In this document: positions 15,873-57,771 of the stretch, one piece after another
How the letters are laid out: the number at the start of each line of letters is the position of its first letter
How positions within the stretch are numbered: position 1 is the first letter of the stretch
Source of the DNA: Dyella sp. C11
Lineage (GTDB): Bacteria; Pseudomonadota; Gammaproteobacteria; Xanthomonadales; Rhodanobacteraceae
Direction of reading: 5' to 3'
Assembly (NCBI RefSeq): GCF_003121485.1
Contig: NZ_QAVX01000005.1
Coordinates: 104,184 to 168,183, forward strand
Length of the DNA: 64,000 nt
Made by a program: the position numbers and the translations under genes
The notes under the pieces: generated by a model
What the model was told of the DNA's origin: nothing
Seen by the model: the letters and a program-made list of their open reading frames with translations, nothing else
The model's database searches: none

Positions 15873-15960
15873 TGTAGGAGCGCACTTGTGCGCGACCGCG
15901 GCCTGATCGTGCACCGAGGCGATGATGCAGGCCGCGGTCGCGCACAAGTGCGCTCCTACA
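15873..15960. repeat. Long palindromic repeat, family A copy 1
   Basis: Perfect 33-bp inverted repeat: 15873-15905 against 15928-15960, starting TGTAGGAGCGCACTTGTGCG on both strands, with a 22-nt centre. The same TGTAGGAGCGCACTTGTGCGCGACC arm occurs at 37209-37290 and 57688-57771, always between genes. It resembles the REP/BIME-type elements widespread in xanthomonads and pseudomonads. No associated REP transposase is in the window. Confidence 0.9.
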
Positions 15961-16921: not shown

Positions 16922-18562
16922 ATGTTCAAACTCTCCAAGCAGATCTCCGGACTGACCTTGCGTCGCCGCCTGCTGCTGCGTCTGCTGGCCATCCTTACGC
17001 TGCTGGCCATCACCTGCGTGGCGGGCGTGGTGCAGCTGCGTCGCGCAGACACGCGCATCCAGGGCGTGGTCGAAGGTTCGCTGAGTCCGGTCGCGGACGT
17101 GGGCCGCGTGCAGAACGACTACAACAGCACGTTGCAGGTACTGGTCCACGCGGTGATGTCCCAGCTTCCCTCGGCCGTGGAAGATGCGCATACGCGCATC
17201 CACGCCGATCGCATCGATGCCGAGCGTCACTGGAAAGCACTGGAAAGCAGCGAGCTCGCGCGCGAGCAAACGCAGGCGCTCAAGCTCACCGTGACGCATC
17301 GGGCAGACGCCGACCGCACCATCGACGAGACGCTCACCCTGCTCGATGCCGGCCAGTTCGACATCGCCGGCCTCAAGCTGACCACCGAAGTACAGCCCGC
17401 CTACGAACCGCTGCAAAGTGATTTCGCCAACCTGTTCCAGGCCGCGCTGGCCAAGGGCAATCAGCAGGTGGACATGCAGCGCGCGGCGGATCGCGACGGC
17501 ATGATCCTGTTGCTCGTGCTGCTGGGCGTGGCACTGGCTGTCACCATCGTGATGGATGGCGCACTGATGCGTTCGCTGATGCAACGCCTTGCGCGCGCTA
17601 CCGACGTCGCGGAACGCATTGCGGCAGGCAGGCTCGGCGAGCCTGTGAACATTGGCGCCAACGACGAACTCGGCCAGTTGCTGCGTACGCTGGCATCGAT
17701 GGACGCCCAGCTGACCCGCGTGCTCGGCGAAGTACGCAGCGGTGCCATTTCCGTGGGCGAGCGCGCACGCCGCCTTGCCCAGGACAACGACGCGCTGAGC
17801 GAACGCACGCAGGCGCAGGCCGCCAGCCTCGAACAGACAGCCGCCTCCATGACGCAGATGGCGGATACCGCGACGCAAGGCGCCGGTCACGCCGATGGCG
17901 CGGCAGACGCCGCGCGTGACGCGCTGGCGCACGTTGAGCACGGCCGCGTGGTCGCGGGCGAGGCGATCGATTCCATCCTCGCCATCGAAAAAGCCAGCCG
18001 CGACATTGCCGAGATCGTGGACCTGGTCGACAGCATCGCCTTCCAGACCAACCTGCTTTCGCTCAACGCCGCCATCGAAGCGGCACAGGCCGGTGAAAAG
18101 GGCCGCGGCTTCGCCGTGGTGGCCAACGAAGTACGCCAGCTTGCACGCCGCTGCGTGGACGCGGGCAAGGACATCCGTCGCCTGGTCGAACGCAGTGGTG
18201 AAGCCGTCGATGCCGCACGCGAACGCGTGATGCGTTCCGGCGAAGCCTTGGACGGCATCGTGCTCAGCATGGGCAGCGTGTCCGAGCGCGTGTCGCATAT
18301 CTCGCACGCGTCGCGCGCACAGGTCGGCGGCATCCATCAGGTCAGCCGTGCCGTGATGGACATGGACGGCATGACCCAGGCCAACGCGGACCTGGTGGAA
18401 GACATCAACCACACCGGTCGCGCCCTCGCCAACGATGCGGACGCGCTGATGCACCAGGTCGCCTTCTTTCGCCTTCCCGGCCGGGAAGATTTCCACGAGT
18501 CGATGCATGACGCACGACCCTCACCCGCAGTGACGCTTCCTGTTCAGGCCGCTGCGGCCTGA
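16922..18562 (+). CDS. Methyl-accepting chemotaxis protein
   Basis: 546-residue inner-membrane chemoreceptor. The first membrane helix is at about 20-42, then a periplasmic helical region of about 150 residues (four-helix-bundle type by length), and a second helix at about 193-214 ([16 protein letters not shown]). A HAMP domain with [17 protein letters not shown] follows, then a signalling domain with the hairpin-tip motif [20 protein letters not shown] and [15 protein letters not shown] that binds CheA/CheW. The ligand cannot be inferred. A sigma-28-type promoter lies just upstream. Downstream, 57 bp after the stop, begins the structured repeat element copy 1. Confidence 0.95.
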
Positions 18563-18619
18563 CATCGACCCGGGCAATGCCAGCCAGTCTCGCCTACCAT
18601 TACACCCCTCACGCCATCC

Positions 18620-18886
18620 AGGGCGTGTTGGCACGTATCAAGTGGCCCGCGCCGGGAGCTGTTTGCCCGCAGGTCAAGGAAGAACGAGGGCGTGTATGTC
18701 GATACACAACCGAGTGATGACGCGGACCTGGGGGCAAACAGACCCGGCCCGAAGGGTTGACTCTCCCCGGCCGCTGGCGGGCAGCGTGCCGCTCGAACAG
18801 GCCACCGGCCTGCCCTTCGCCCCCCACTGCCCGCCAGCGCCCGGGGAGAGTCAACGTGGGCTACTTGATAAGTGCCAACACGCCCT
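18620..18886 (+). repeat. Structured inverted-repeat element, copy 1 (novel family)
   Basis: 267-nt element. Outer arms 18620-18650 and 18856-18886 pair over 28 of 31 positions, two of the three exceptions being G-U in RNA. Next inward, a stem pairs 18651-18675 with 18725-18748. It encloses a 49-nt core (18676-18724) with a GTGTAT/ATACAC mini-hairpin that is 44/49 identical to copy 2 at 56648-56913. Then comes a 29-bp internal hairpin (18756-18784 with 18827-18855, one mismatch) whose sequence is not shared with copy 2, capped by CAGGCC/GGCCTG. The last 24 nt of each outer arm are also copy-specific. The right arm runs into the EAL gene. It looks like a structured RNA or a non-autonomous mobile element with retron-like layout; no enzyme for it is visible. 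Confidence 0.85.
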
Positions 18887-20633
18887 AGAGCGCGCACTCG
18901 TTGCAGGAAGCCTCACGCCGGTCTTCCAGCCCATAGTGCGCATCGACACCATGGAAGTCGTCGCGCATGAGGGGTTGAGCCGTTGCGGCTTCATGCCCGG
19001 GAATATTTCCATTCTCGACCTGCTCGACCTTGCCCGCATGGAAGGCCGGCTCGCCGAGCTGGAACTGCACGCCGCACGCACCTTGTGCGGCGCGTTCGCT
19101 GCGCAGCAGGCGGAAGGCCGGCTGCTGGTCAACCTGAGCCCGCACGCGATTCTGCACGACTCCCTGCGGCCGGACGACGTGCTCGCCGCGCTTTCCGCCT
19201 GCGGACTCGACCCGGCACGCGTCACTATCGAGGTGACCGAACGCGATGTGGTCGAAAGCCCCGCGCGCCTCGCGCACGCGCTGGGTTATCTGCGAGCGCA
19301 TGGCGTGCGCATTGCGCTGGACGATTTCGGCAACGGCCATTCCAACTTCGAGATGTGGAACGAGATTCACCCCGACGTGGTGAAGATCGATCGCTACCTG
19401 GTGCATGGCGTCTCCCGCAGCGCAGGCAGGCTGGCCATCGTGCGCTCGCTCTGCCAGGTCGCCGAATCGCTGGGCACGGACCTGGTCGGCGAAGGCGTGG
19501 AAGATCCGGCCGACCTTCGCGTGCTGCGTGACCTGGGCATTCCCTATGCGCAGGGCTTCCTGATTGGCCGCCCTGCGGAGCAGACCGCACGCGAGGCCAG
19601 CACGGCATCACGTCAGTTGCTGCGCGCGCCTGCCGTGCCGGTACTTCCCCGCCCTCGCGGGCCGGTAACGCAGCGGCCCACCCAAGTGCGTCATTTGCTG
19701 ATCGAAGCGCCCTCCGTGCAGCCTCGCCAGACGAACGATGAAGTGATGGCCCTGTTCGTCGATCATCCGGAAATGCATGCGGTCGCGGTGGTCAAGGACG
19801 GCCACCCCATCGGCCTCATCAACCGGCGGCTGGTCAACGAACGCATGGCGCAGCCGTTCGCCCGCGAACTGCTCGCAAGAAAATCGTGCACGGCATTGAT
19901 GAATACCGCGCCGCTCATCTGCGACGAAAATCGCAGCCTGGAAAGTCTTGCCGACGTGTTGCGCGGCGAAGACCAGCGCTATCTTGCCGATGGTTTCATC
20001 ATCACGCGCCAAGGCCAGTACCTCGGGCTGGGCACCGGCGAGGCACTCGTGCGGCGCGTGAGCGAACTGCGCATCGAGGCTGCACGGCATGCCAATCCGC
20101 TGACCTTCCTGCCGGGCAACATTCCCACCACGGAACATCTGGAACGCCTGATCGACGGCAGCGAACCGTTTACCGTCGTGCACGTGGACCTGACGGACTT
20201 CAAGCCGTACAACGACCTCTACGGGTACTCGCGCGGCGACGAAATGATCCGCCTGCTTTCGGGCCTGCTCGGCGAGCATGTGGACCCCGCGCTCGACTTC
20301 GTCGGCCACATCGGCGGCGACGATTTCGTGTTGCTGTTCCAGAGCAACGACTGGGAAGCACGGTGTCAGCGCGTCATCGATGCGTTCAATGCGCGATCAC
20401 CGCAATTGTTCGACGCCGTGGACATCATTCACGGTGGGCTGCATGGCAAGGATCGCCGCGGCGAACCGCAATTCTTCCCCTGCACCACGGTGGTGATGGG
20501 CGCGGTGGAACTTTGCCCGCCCTTGCCACAGCGCGCGCAATCCATCGCCATGCTGGCCGCCCGCGCCAAGCGCCATGCCAAACGCGCGCACAGCGGCCTG
20601 CACGTCTTCCCAAGACTCGTGGCGCCGGCATGA
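18696..20633 (+). CDS. EAL-CBS-GGDEF cyclic-di-GMP signalling protein
   Basis: Predicted c-di-GMP protein with domains in reverse of the usual order: EAL (about 65-310 from this start), a CBS pair (about 340-460) and a C-terminal GGDEF-like domain (about 485-630). EAL residues look intact: HEGLSR in place of EALxR, NLSP, EVTERD, LDDFGNG, VKIDR, GEGVE and QGFLIGR, so phosphodiesterase activity is plausible. The GGDEF site reads GGDDF with HVDLTDFKPYND before it and may be weak or regulatory. The first 60 or so residues come from the repeat element at 18620-18886, so the start is uncertain: ATG 18696 has a GAGGG ribosome-binding site, while ATG 18717 and GTG 18642 are alternatives. No start codon exists in the native part ahead of the EAL domain. 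Confidence 0.8.
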   Translation: MSIHNRVMTRTWGQTDPARRVDSPRPLAGSVPLEQATGLPFAPHCPPAPGESQRGLLDKCQHALERALVAGSLTPVFQPIVRIDTMEVVAHEGLSRCGFMPGNISILDLLDLARMEGRLAELELHAARTLCGAFAAQQAEGRLLVNLSPHAILHDSLRPDDVLAALSACGLDPARVTIEVTERDVVESPARLAHALGYLRAHGVRIALDDFGNGHSNFEMWNEIHPDVVKIDRYLVHGVSRSAGRLAIVRSLCQVAESLGTDLVGEGVEDPADLRVLRDLGIPYAQGFLIGRPAEQTAREASTASRQLLRAPAVPVLPRPRGPVTQRPTQVRHLLIEAPSVQPRQTNDEVMALFVDHPEMHAVAVVKDGHPIGLINRRLVNERMAQPFARELLARKSCTALMNTAPLICDENRSLESLADVLRGEDQRYLADGFIITRQGQYLGLGTGEALVRRVSELRIEAARHANPLTFLPGNIPTTEHLERLIDGSEPFTVVHVDLTDFKPYNDLYGYSRGDEMIRLLSGLLGEHVDPALDFVGHIGGDDFVLLFQSNDWEARCQRVIDAFNARSPQLFDAVDIIHGGLHGKDRRGEPQFFPCTTVVMGAVELCPPLPQRAQSIAMLAARAKRHAKRAHSGLHVFPRLVAPA

Positions 20634-32820: not shown

Positions 32821-33273
32821 TGGAATGCTCCCTGATGGGGCTGAACCCCGGTTTCTGACTGATCTGGCGGTGACCCGGGAAGGCCACTCTTTCCGTCCTG
32901 CCACGATCGGTTCACGACCCGTCCTGGTGGGTCGAACCGGCGATTATACGGACGATTCGGGGGATTTGCCAGCGGGGGAATGGGTTTACCGCAACCTGGC
33001 TCCCTCTCCCCTCCGGGCAGAGGGTTGGGGTGAGGGGCCAACCTGGCCTCGGTGGCCGGACCACCCTCATCGTCGTCCCGGCGCAGGCCGGGACCCAGAG
33101 CCACCGCGCCTGGTTTTCGCGATAACCAAGCCTTGCCTCAGCTGGATTCCGGCCTGCGCCGGAATGCCGGGCTGGAAACGCTTTCGCGAGCACCCGCCCC
33201 TCACCCTGCCCTCTCCCCGGAGGGGCGAGGGAAAAGCGCGCTTCGGCCGGGAAGCCTGAAGGCATCGATGCCC
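32821..33273. repeat. Repeat-filled spacer between infC terminator and rpmI
   Basis: No gene. It holds at least two copies of the CCCTCTCCCC-type palindrome (about 33000-33036 and 33202-33232). It also holds two GGCGCAGGCCGG / CCGGCCTGCGCC-type repeats (about 33078-33095 and 33151-33170) facing each other. The 150 bp nearest rpmI should contain the rpmI-rplT promoter and, by analogy with E. coli, the L20 control site, but I could not define either. Confidence 0.7.
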
Positions 33274-37208: not shown

Positions 37209-37290
37209 TGTAGGAGCGCACTTGTGCGCGACCGCCGTCGCCTCACCGAGAGTTTTTCGCGGTTTGGTCGCGCACAAGTGCGCTCCTACA
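37209..37290. repeat. Long palindromic repeat, family A copy 2
   Basis: Perfect 25-bp arms, 37209-37233 and 37266-37290 (TGTAGGAGCGCACTTGTGCG and on), around a 32-nt centre. It begins 13 bp after the epimerase stop and lies between convergent genes. It is the same family as 15873-15960 and 57688-57771. Confidence 0.9.
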
Positions 37291-46214: not shown

Positions 46215-46355
46215 TCAACCATTCTCCTCGCCGCGCCCTCGCGGCTCGTTCGTCCGTGCAAAACGCGGCGGACCGCGTAGCTTCCCGCGCCGGGCATGAC
46301 AGGGTCAAGCATCCAGGAGATGCCTGATTTCGACGGTTCACCAAGCCTGCCCCGC

Positions 46356-46480
46356 CGTCATTCCGGCGCAGGCCGGAATCCAGTGGCGAAAGCGATCAGC
46401 TGTCGCGAACGAACGCGGTCAGCCCTGGCGCGAAAGCCGGGCTACAGCGCGACTGGATTCCGGCCTGCGCCGGAATGACG
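46356..46480. repeat. Inverted pair of CGTCATTCCGGCGCAGGCC-type repeats
   Basis: 29-bp perfect arms, 46356-46384 and 46452-46480, facing each other around a 67-nt centre. Each arm itself contains the small hairpin CCGGC-GCAG-GCCGG. Related single or paired copies occur at about 33070-33175, 3704-3735 and 35880-35895 (degenerate). This is a common dispersed intergenic repeat type. Confidence 0.85.
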
Positions 46481-46522
46481 ACAGGGGATCGCGGGGCCTG
46501 AAACAAATCCTCGCATCCACAG

Positions 46523-56647: not shown

Positions 56648-56913
56648 GTGCCTGCTTCATATCTTTTCATGGCCCGCATTCGTCGTCTCAGGCCGCCTCA
56701 GAGAGAGCTGAGTCGTAGCGCCTGACTGGTGGTCAGGTCAAGGTTCAGCTCTCTCTGAGGCGGCCTGAGGCGGCGAACCCTATGGGCCGGGTCTATTTGC
56801 CCGCCAGCCTGCGTCATCACTCGGTCGTGTATCGACTTACACTCCCTCGTTCTTTCTTGGCTGGCGGGCAAACAGCTCCCGGCGCGGGCCATGAAAAGAT
56901 ATGAAGCAGGCAC
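56648..56913 (-). repeat. Structured inverted-repeat element, copy 2 (novel family)
   Basis: 266 nt, minus-strand orientation. Outer arms 56648-56677 and 56884-56913 pair perfectly over 30 bp. A stem pairs 56859-56883 with 56786-56809 and encloses the conserved 49-nt core, which matches copy 1 at 44 positions. A perfect 25-bp internal hairpin (56687-56711 with 56745-56769) is unrelated to the one in copy 1 and is capped by CCTGAC/GTCAGG. Only the GGCCCGC/GCGGGCC ends, the stem and the core are shared; the outermost 23 nt of each arm are unique to this copy. It sits between grxD and sodB, in the same orientation as grxD. Confidence 0.87.
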
Positions 56914-57687: not shown

Positions 57688-57771
57688 TGTAGGAGCGCAC
57701 TTGTGCGCGACCGCCACGATTGACGAACCGGGACACTCAACCCTGCGGTCGCGCACTAGTGCGCTCCTACA
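57688..57771. repeat. Long palindromic repeat, family A copy 3
   Basis: 27-bp arms, 57688-57714 and 57745-57771, one mismatch (CTTG against CTAG), same TGTAGGAGCGCAC arm as the copies at 15873 and 37209. It lies between the convergent sodB and purK genes. Confidence 0.9.

Follow-up and report, generated by a model that had tools for sequence, protein, structure and literature searches.

The window analyzed here (the whole stretch of 64,000 nucleotides from Dyella sp. C11) contains two copies of a structured element, both located where the initial annotation had placed them (Table 1). Copy 1 lies within the 5' coding end of a GGDEF/EAL gene, which was named by reading its translation. Copy 2 sits between the divergent genes sodB and grxD, with the grxD start a few bases downstream of it; both genes were named by reading the sequence. 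A 26-nt core pattern matches the window twice, with 0.00 matches expected (100 shuffles). The 44/49 identity of the 49-nt core between the copies was found again by eye, as were the compensatory stem changes, AGGTC/GACCT in copy 1 and CAGCC/GGCTG in copy 2. Of the GGCCCGC/GCGGGCC ends described for both copies, the right inner end of copy 1 reads GTGGGCT, an imperfect GCGGGCC. The inverted repeats of copy 1 comprise the outer arms (40 nt, 85%), the P3 hairpin (29 nt, 97%) and an inner stem (17 nt, 94%); those of copy 2 are the outer arms (30 nt, 100%), the P3 hairpin, which had been given as 25 bp and measures 33 nt at 94%, and an inner stem (17 nt, 94%).

End-to-end alignment of 25 full copies provided the consensus anatomy: outer arms of about 31-32 bp (P1), a hairpin P2, a mini hairpin CCC-nnn-GGG, and a hairpin P3 with a copy-specific stem. 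The inner part of P2 is conserved, and by eye its Watson-Crick pairs alternate with tandem G-A steps.

Table 1. Features of the two element copies, in positions of the window.
Feature	Position	Strand	Basis or remark
Copy 1 of the element	18621..18885	+	ends GGGCGTG...CGCCC, CA/TA flanks; empty in 18/18 extracted loci
Copy 1 target duplication, left half, probable TA (now CA)	18619..18620		probable; relatives read ATGCTAGAG or ATGCTCGAG
Copy 1 target duplication, right half, probable TA	18886..18887		probable
Copy 1 P1 left arm, copy-specific	18620..18650	+	inverted repeat and alignment consensus
Copy 1 P1 right arm	18856..18886	+	inverted repeat and alignment consensus
Copy 1 P2 conserved hairpin	18651..18748	+	137.9 bits to model R1 (R1 includes copy 1)
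Copy 1 P2 inner part	about 18675-18725	+	helix broken by tandem G-A steps, by eye
Copy 1 mini hairpin CCC-nnn-GGG	18748..18756	+	variable loop, invariant stem in 25 aligned copies
Copy 1 P3 long hairpin, copy-specific stem	18756..18855	+	family-wide mismatch bias is that of the minus strand
Copy 2 of the element	56648..56913	-	17/18 other extracted loci empty, G316 filled
Copy 2 P1 left arm	56884..56913	-	inverted repeat
Copy 2 P1 right arm	56648..56677	-	inverted repeat
Copy 2 P2 hairpin	56786..56883	-	132.9 bits to model R1 (R1 includes copy 2)
Copy 2 P3 hairpin	56679..56777	-	inverted repeat

Comparison with other genomes shows that the element is a mobile insertion, moving as a unit. Copy 1 is absent from all 18 other extracted loci, copy 2 is present in one of 18 (genome G316), and the empty sites carry neither arm. 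The earlier description of a mobile element that is non-autonomous, has a structured and conserved core and shows genuine covariation is supported. The empty sites rule out, for both copies, the suggestion that insertion copies the flanking sequence as an inverted repeat, since both arms are missing from them. Among 120 sampled loci (the best among the matches listed), 96 share no flank with another sampled copy and 24 fall into flank groups common to sampled genomes. At the empty copy 1 sites an open frame starting ATGTCAGCC or similar crosses the site into an EAL-type protein (by eye), so copy 1 breaks the gene some 13 codons in. Read by eye, the frame of the original start hits TGA codons within copy 1, and another frame opens inside copy 1 at 18642 and continues to 20633. 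In this region (18562-18890) the start inside copy 1 may replace the lost start of the GGDEF/EAL gene.

The ends of the element were examined in full-length Dyella copies. From 124 Dyella loci, 4 that gave no arms and 10 outside 255-285 nt were set aside, which left 110 copies, all distinct in sequence; the 113 loci from other Dyella genomes were the best among the matches listed, so the sample favours good matches, and set-wide counts treat related copies as independent. TNA lies directly outside GAG...CTC on the left in 54/110 copies and on the right in 46/110, against 1-7 at seven shifted positions. The flanking triplets are equal in 21/110 copies (19 of them TNA), against 1-6 at shifted positions, and TNA is found on both sides in just 31/110. 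Equal TNA triplets were also read by eye in 9 of 17 two-ended palindromes that have ends of this kind.

The outermost bases of many Dyella copies, GAGCCTGTTCA, and their TNA duplication recur in IS5-family elements, 848-849 bp long, from the same family of bacteria. GAGCCTGTTCA is shared with IS copies in genomes G150 and G206 and with a truncated IS carrying these ends and a DDE_Tnp_1 domain in the Dyella genome G400 (locus L206); the transposases are predicted ones, and the likeness covers the outermost 11-12 bases alone. In G150, 13 of the 15 matches to the IS5-family frame lie within 848-849 bp elements with ends GAGCCTGTTCAAAGTCTC / GAACCTGTTCAAAGTCTT; TNA is present on both sides of all 13, with equal triplets in 10. 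The 12-base end AGAGCCTGTTCA occurs 47+48 times in G400 (reversed control 0+1). A search of 147 family genomes with the 143-aa frame of L206 returned relatives in 5, one frame of which holds a stop; three of these genomes (G198, G206 and G328) also carry the element, and G150 and G090 have a relative but no element at the model threshold. No relative of this frame was found in the source genome at E 1e-15, and no DDE_Tnp_1 match at E 0.1 in the one-contig genome G312, which has 21 ends. In the IS1031 subgroup of IS5, according to the part of PMC12016507 consulted, TNA is the preferred target and a 3-bp repeat is made; the 17-bp ends of its member ISLrh start with GAACCTGT.

Other copies differ at their ends. 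Those of family f9 (genome G093) end in YAGGGYCTGTTAACAC, with 39 end matches there and flanks that suggest a TA target (by eye). Copy 1 is closer to this type, its flanks being TA-type and not TNA-type. Exact AGAGCCTGTTCA is missing from the source genome; from this and from the flanks of copy 1, the copies of that genome appear old.

Because the ends and the TNA duplication are common to IS5-family elements, we class the element as a probable MITE, a non-autonomous DNA transposon about 266-270 bp long, with ends of the IS5 type. This length leaves no space for a transposase gene, and a transposase of the IS5/IS1031 type probably moves the element, or moved it, in trans. The initial annotation had counted the end of a described IS element among the findings that would speak against its reading; the ends turn out to be those of an IS5/IS1031-type element. 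IS5/IS1031 elements and the MITEs derived from them likewise have ends beginning GAGCCTGTT and a TNA duplication (in the portion of PMC12016507 consulted). The present element differs from IS5/IS1031 in that it lacks a transposase, shares only about 11-12 terminal bases, and has a structured hairpin pair as its interior; moreover, some of its copies have GGGYCTGTT ends with TA-like targets. MITEs are a known kind of element, and the internal inverted hairpin pair together with the concerted drift of the arms described below makes this one a distinct variant. To our knowledge no comparable internal inverted hairpin pair exists in the Correia and RUP elements. These are also short prokaryotic MITEs, but derive from IS630, another IS family (PMC2817692, consulted in part). 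At three further loci (L177, L185 and L187) we observed AGAGCCTGTTCA-ended palindromes with quite different interiors, some of them REP-like, as if the ends had acquired several kinds of hairpin.

The source genome (4.73 Mb, 46 contigs) contains 11 copies, plus one 20-base match at E 0.07, when the 118-nt 5' domain is used as the query. The exact 26-nt core pattern is present in 18 stretches of a species-level genome collection, namely 16 from Dyella, one from Luteimonas gilva and one from a Lysobacterales metagenome assembly. The initial annotation had proposed a covariance model; our model R1, built on the conserved domain from 27 sequences, finds matches (E up to 0.001) in 115 of the 398 genomes that were sampled from the order, spread over 39 of 98 genera. 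The distribution across these 398 genomes is patchy, and copy numbers are lower bounds because the scan scored up to 9 places per genome. Searches of plasmid and phage collections with locus L024 and of viral contigs with the core pattern gave no match. The earlier statement that no described family has this combination agrees with Rfam, whose thresholds were not reached near copy 1 or in five relatives; the matches there were just sub-threshold, microRNA-type ones. A keyword search of the PMC literature, a coverage that leaves ISfinder and most subscription journals outside, returned no description that we recognised as this element or mechanism. Searches of PMC with the letters of the end and core sequences returned only works unrelated by title, and the main texts of PMC2267715 and PMC3733652 do not mention Xanthomonas. 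As far as we could find in the literature covered, the family is unnamed.

Pairing within the element is maintained despite extensive sequence change. Across the 110 Dyella copies, 98.1% of paired cells in P1, 96.1% in P2 and 94.4% in P3 are complementary, compared with 27-45% in slid controls, which shift the 3' partner by 1-3 columns; part of this excess is to be expected, since the alignment that was scored also supplied the structure. Double-sided changes affect 29/31 pairs in P1, 19/33 in P2 and 35/42 in P3 (17-20, 4-10 and 22-27, respectively, in the slid controls). The arms had been described as unrelated between copies. This does not hold for G400, where ten full-length copies have nearly the same arms, with AGAGCCTGTTCACGATCTCC in 8 of them; the window copies look older, and their arms have drifted, both having changed together.

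Orthologous copies show such changes more directly. In nine close orthologous pairs, chosen by hand after the pair differences had been seen, 11 stem pairs changed on both sides, where 1.77 are expected and none of 5000 simulations with random placement of the same changes reaches 11; the counts are small and the copies not independent. Nine of the 11 changed from one Watson-Crick pair to another, five of these nine by transversions, and the other two are not Watson-Crick on both sides. The set consists of 8 of 19 orthologous pairs matched on both flanks and of the grxD pair (W2/L147), which contributes one counted double change; another, noticed by eye, lies outside the consensus pairs. Of the pairs left out, the three that L214, L250 and L273 form with one another have 61-72 differences and may be separate insertions; L216/L223, L216/L227, three with L237, L230/L327 and L233/L327 have 31-66; and in L217/L255 the L255 copy is internally deleted.

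Selection on RNA predicts an excess of G-U pairs and of transitions; neither is expected if one arm is copied onto the other. In P1, outside one fixed G-T (wobble) column, G-U and A-C mismatches are equal in number (39 each in the 110 copies). The lack of a G-U preference in P1, together with the five transversions, indicates with moderate confidence, and short of proof, that selection on RNA does not act alone and that hairpin-templated DNA correction renews part of the complementarity. The double changes could also come from selection plus fast second mutations. In P2, the single changes in the nine pairs (core included) are mostly G-U (11, versus 2 A-C), as selection predicts. Template switching is known to make and maintain hairpins, and in the part of PMC8794818 consulted it is described as producing compensatory changes by reverse-complement copying, not by two separate mutations. 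That work concerns RNA genes, whereas here the arms belong to a mobile DNA element and lie about 200 bp apart.

The mismatches also carry information about the strand on which each hairpin is constrained. In the 110 copies, P2 with the core contains 97 G-U and 24 A-C mismatches, and P3 with the apex 40 and 153. Counted by position, the G-U:A-C ratio is 15:3 in P2 (p 0.008), 7:29 in P3 (p 0.0003) and 9:11 in P1 (p 0.82). This bias assigns P2 to the plus strand and P3 to the minus strand. It fits two inverted hairpins, each presumably under constraint on a different strand, in the form of RNA or single-stranded DNA, and it supports selection on the structure of both. The initial reading of the covariation as selected pairing of RNA or single-stranded DNA holds in part: the mismatch bias favours it for P2 and P3, but P1 lacks a wobble preference, and five of the nine Watson-Crick double changes across the stems are transversions. 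P2 resembles the reverse complement of P3 in one locus of family f9 (L136, z 8.1, 38/52 identities) and one of family f8 (L066, z 6.6, 38/53 identities; 500 shuffles), scores that are somewhat raised because the boundaries were set on shared motifs; the homology is undetectable in the Dyella consensus (z 1.1). The ancestor was thus probably an inverted pair of homologous hairpins.

A stand-alone structured non-coding RNA family, with stems kept by selection and only incidental dispersal, would account for the strong covariation beyond the slid controls, for the plus-strand conservation of the core with its tandem G-A steps, for the wobble preference in P2, and for the divergence below third codon positions at orthologous loci (see below). 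The covariation beyond controls may, in turn, originate at the DNA level. We consider an RNA family improbable given the precise insertion, the transposon ends and the target duplication, the opposite strand bias of P3 and the lack of any bias in P1, and the 96 of 120 sampled loci that have no flank in common with another copy. A retron or other reverse-transcriptase system, with the arms as a1/a2, P2 as msr and P3 as msd, is far less probable still. Retrons have complementary ends, a conserved structured part and a variable long hairpin, in that order, and the element is similar in this respect. The comparison, made in the initial annotation, is unlikely to apply, given ends and a target duplication that are those of a DDE transposon, dispersed multi-copy insertions and the minus-strand bias of P3; in Rfam, no gathering score was reached near copy 1 or in five relatives.

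A REPIN/BIME-type element, moved by a RAYT acting on single-stranded hairpins, might be expected to have a pair of hairpins in inverted orientation that differ in strand bias, as found here (homology in families f8 and f9; bias in 110 Dyella copies), and GTGG/GTAG-like bases precede the hairpins in many copies (by eye). Duplication of TNA is a trait of DDE transposons, and as such counts against mobilisation by a RAYT. The Y1_Tnp domain is present in 11 of 20 Dyella genomes and missing from the element-bearing G392, G334, G085 and G316. None of the 15 Y1_Tnp loci in these 20 genomes has a AGAGCCTGTTCA end within one mismatch (mostly 1.5 kb flanks), and weak model matches alone, of 18.0 and 14.9 bits, were found at two of them. 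We found no RAYT link for the element, and regard this origin as slightly less probable than a non-coding RNA family. According to the part of PMC2817692 consulted, REP, REPIN and BIME sequences are likewise inverted hairpin pairs, intergenic and in many copies, and are known from Xanthomonas and Stenotrophomonas; REP units measure 20-40 bp, whereas the element is about 270 bp long with terminal inverted repeats and a target duplication. The window also contains three inverted pairs of ordinary GTAG-type REPs (TGTAGGAGCGCACTTGTGCGCGACC; 15873-15960, 37209-37290 and 57688-57771), which are unrelated to the element and resemble Xanthomonas REPs listed in the consulted part of PMC2817692. An inverted pair of CGTC-type REPs lies at 46350-46486, with similar sequences near 33071-33169 and 35879.

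In this probable MITE with IS5-type ends, P2 and P3 lie in opposite orientation, so that either strand would expose a single folded hairpin, P2 in the case of the plus strand and P3 in that of the minus strand, much like inverted REP pairs. The whole element folds back on itself, and template switching across the hairpins during replication probably copies one arm onto the other repeatedly. Arms and stems would then drift together, leaving every old copy with private, matched arms, and selection on the folded P2 and P3 hairpins would add to arm copying. Going further, we tentatively propose, as one possible model, a self-renewing complementarity, in which templated copying would homogenise the arms and produce RNA-like covariation without an RNA, while the two strand-specific hairpins would be selected and some insertions would serve host regulation. 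No other sequence evidence for a functional RNA is commonly rated as highly as covariation. In the present family strong covariation spans the arms of a transposon, which lie about 200 bp from each other; the double changes include transversions, and the outer stem shows no wobble preference. This additional element family, with matches in 115 of 398 sampled genomes of the order, offers a natural setting in which to ask how closely templating at the DNA level can imitate selection on RNA, and the strand-by-strand bias of G-U versus A-C may separate the two.

Retained copies appear to evolve slowly, which suggests that they are under constraint, as judged from sequence comparison. In eight close orthologous pairs the element diverges by 0.7-8.9% and flanking third codon positions by 9.9-29.5% (frames picked automatically by GC pattern, not annotated), so that the element is 3.2 to 13 times less diverged (e.g. 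7/272 vs 86/308; 24/269 vs 106/374). Two more diverged pairs give 13.9% for the element vs 26.7% at third codon positions, and 12.4% vs 30.5%. Within the element, in the nine pairs, the P3 stem changes most (30/432) and P2 least (8/396).

Some neighboring genes end at the element. Of 87 gene 3' ends facing it, 20 use the flanking triplet itself as the stop codon (11 TGA, 8 TAA, 1 TAG), and 15 more stop within 12 bases outside it. Where the target triplet is the stop codon, insertion and duplication preserve the stop. The 20 copies with this coincidence of target triplet and neighboring stop lie among L210-L329 (e.g. L266, L278 and L291). The MITE might therefore have been taken over by hosts as a regulatory UTR or gene-boundary element whose structure is kept by selection on expression; the low divergence in the eight close pairs, the facing 3' ends and the position of copy 2 directly before grxD are consistent with this. 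We regard such a takeover as possible but rather doubtful, and a little less probable than self-renewing complementarity: just 24 of 120 loci (the best among the matches listed) belong to shared flank groups, a TNA target in itself already explains insertion into TAA or TGA, and the genes were called by GC pattern alone.

Altered forms of the element also occur. Genomes G093 and G103 contain deleted forms of 60-163 bp with ends of the family f9 type, and dimers of 531-534 bp were found; those at L133 and L134 (G093) are arranged head to tail, with one shortened end common at the junction. Remnants of 28 bp at L132 and L142 (G093) read CAGGGCCTGTT-AACACC-AACAGGCCCTA and possibly come from hairpin loss. 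L070 and L081 (G156) have the same left flank and different right flanks, which may reflect an assembly error or an element-mediated rearrangement. Finally, 313-bp forms at L181-L184 (G392 and G334) carry an extra nested palindrome with the recurring motif CTCGCTCCTCA, located in P3 (L181-L183) or in P2 (L184).
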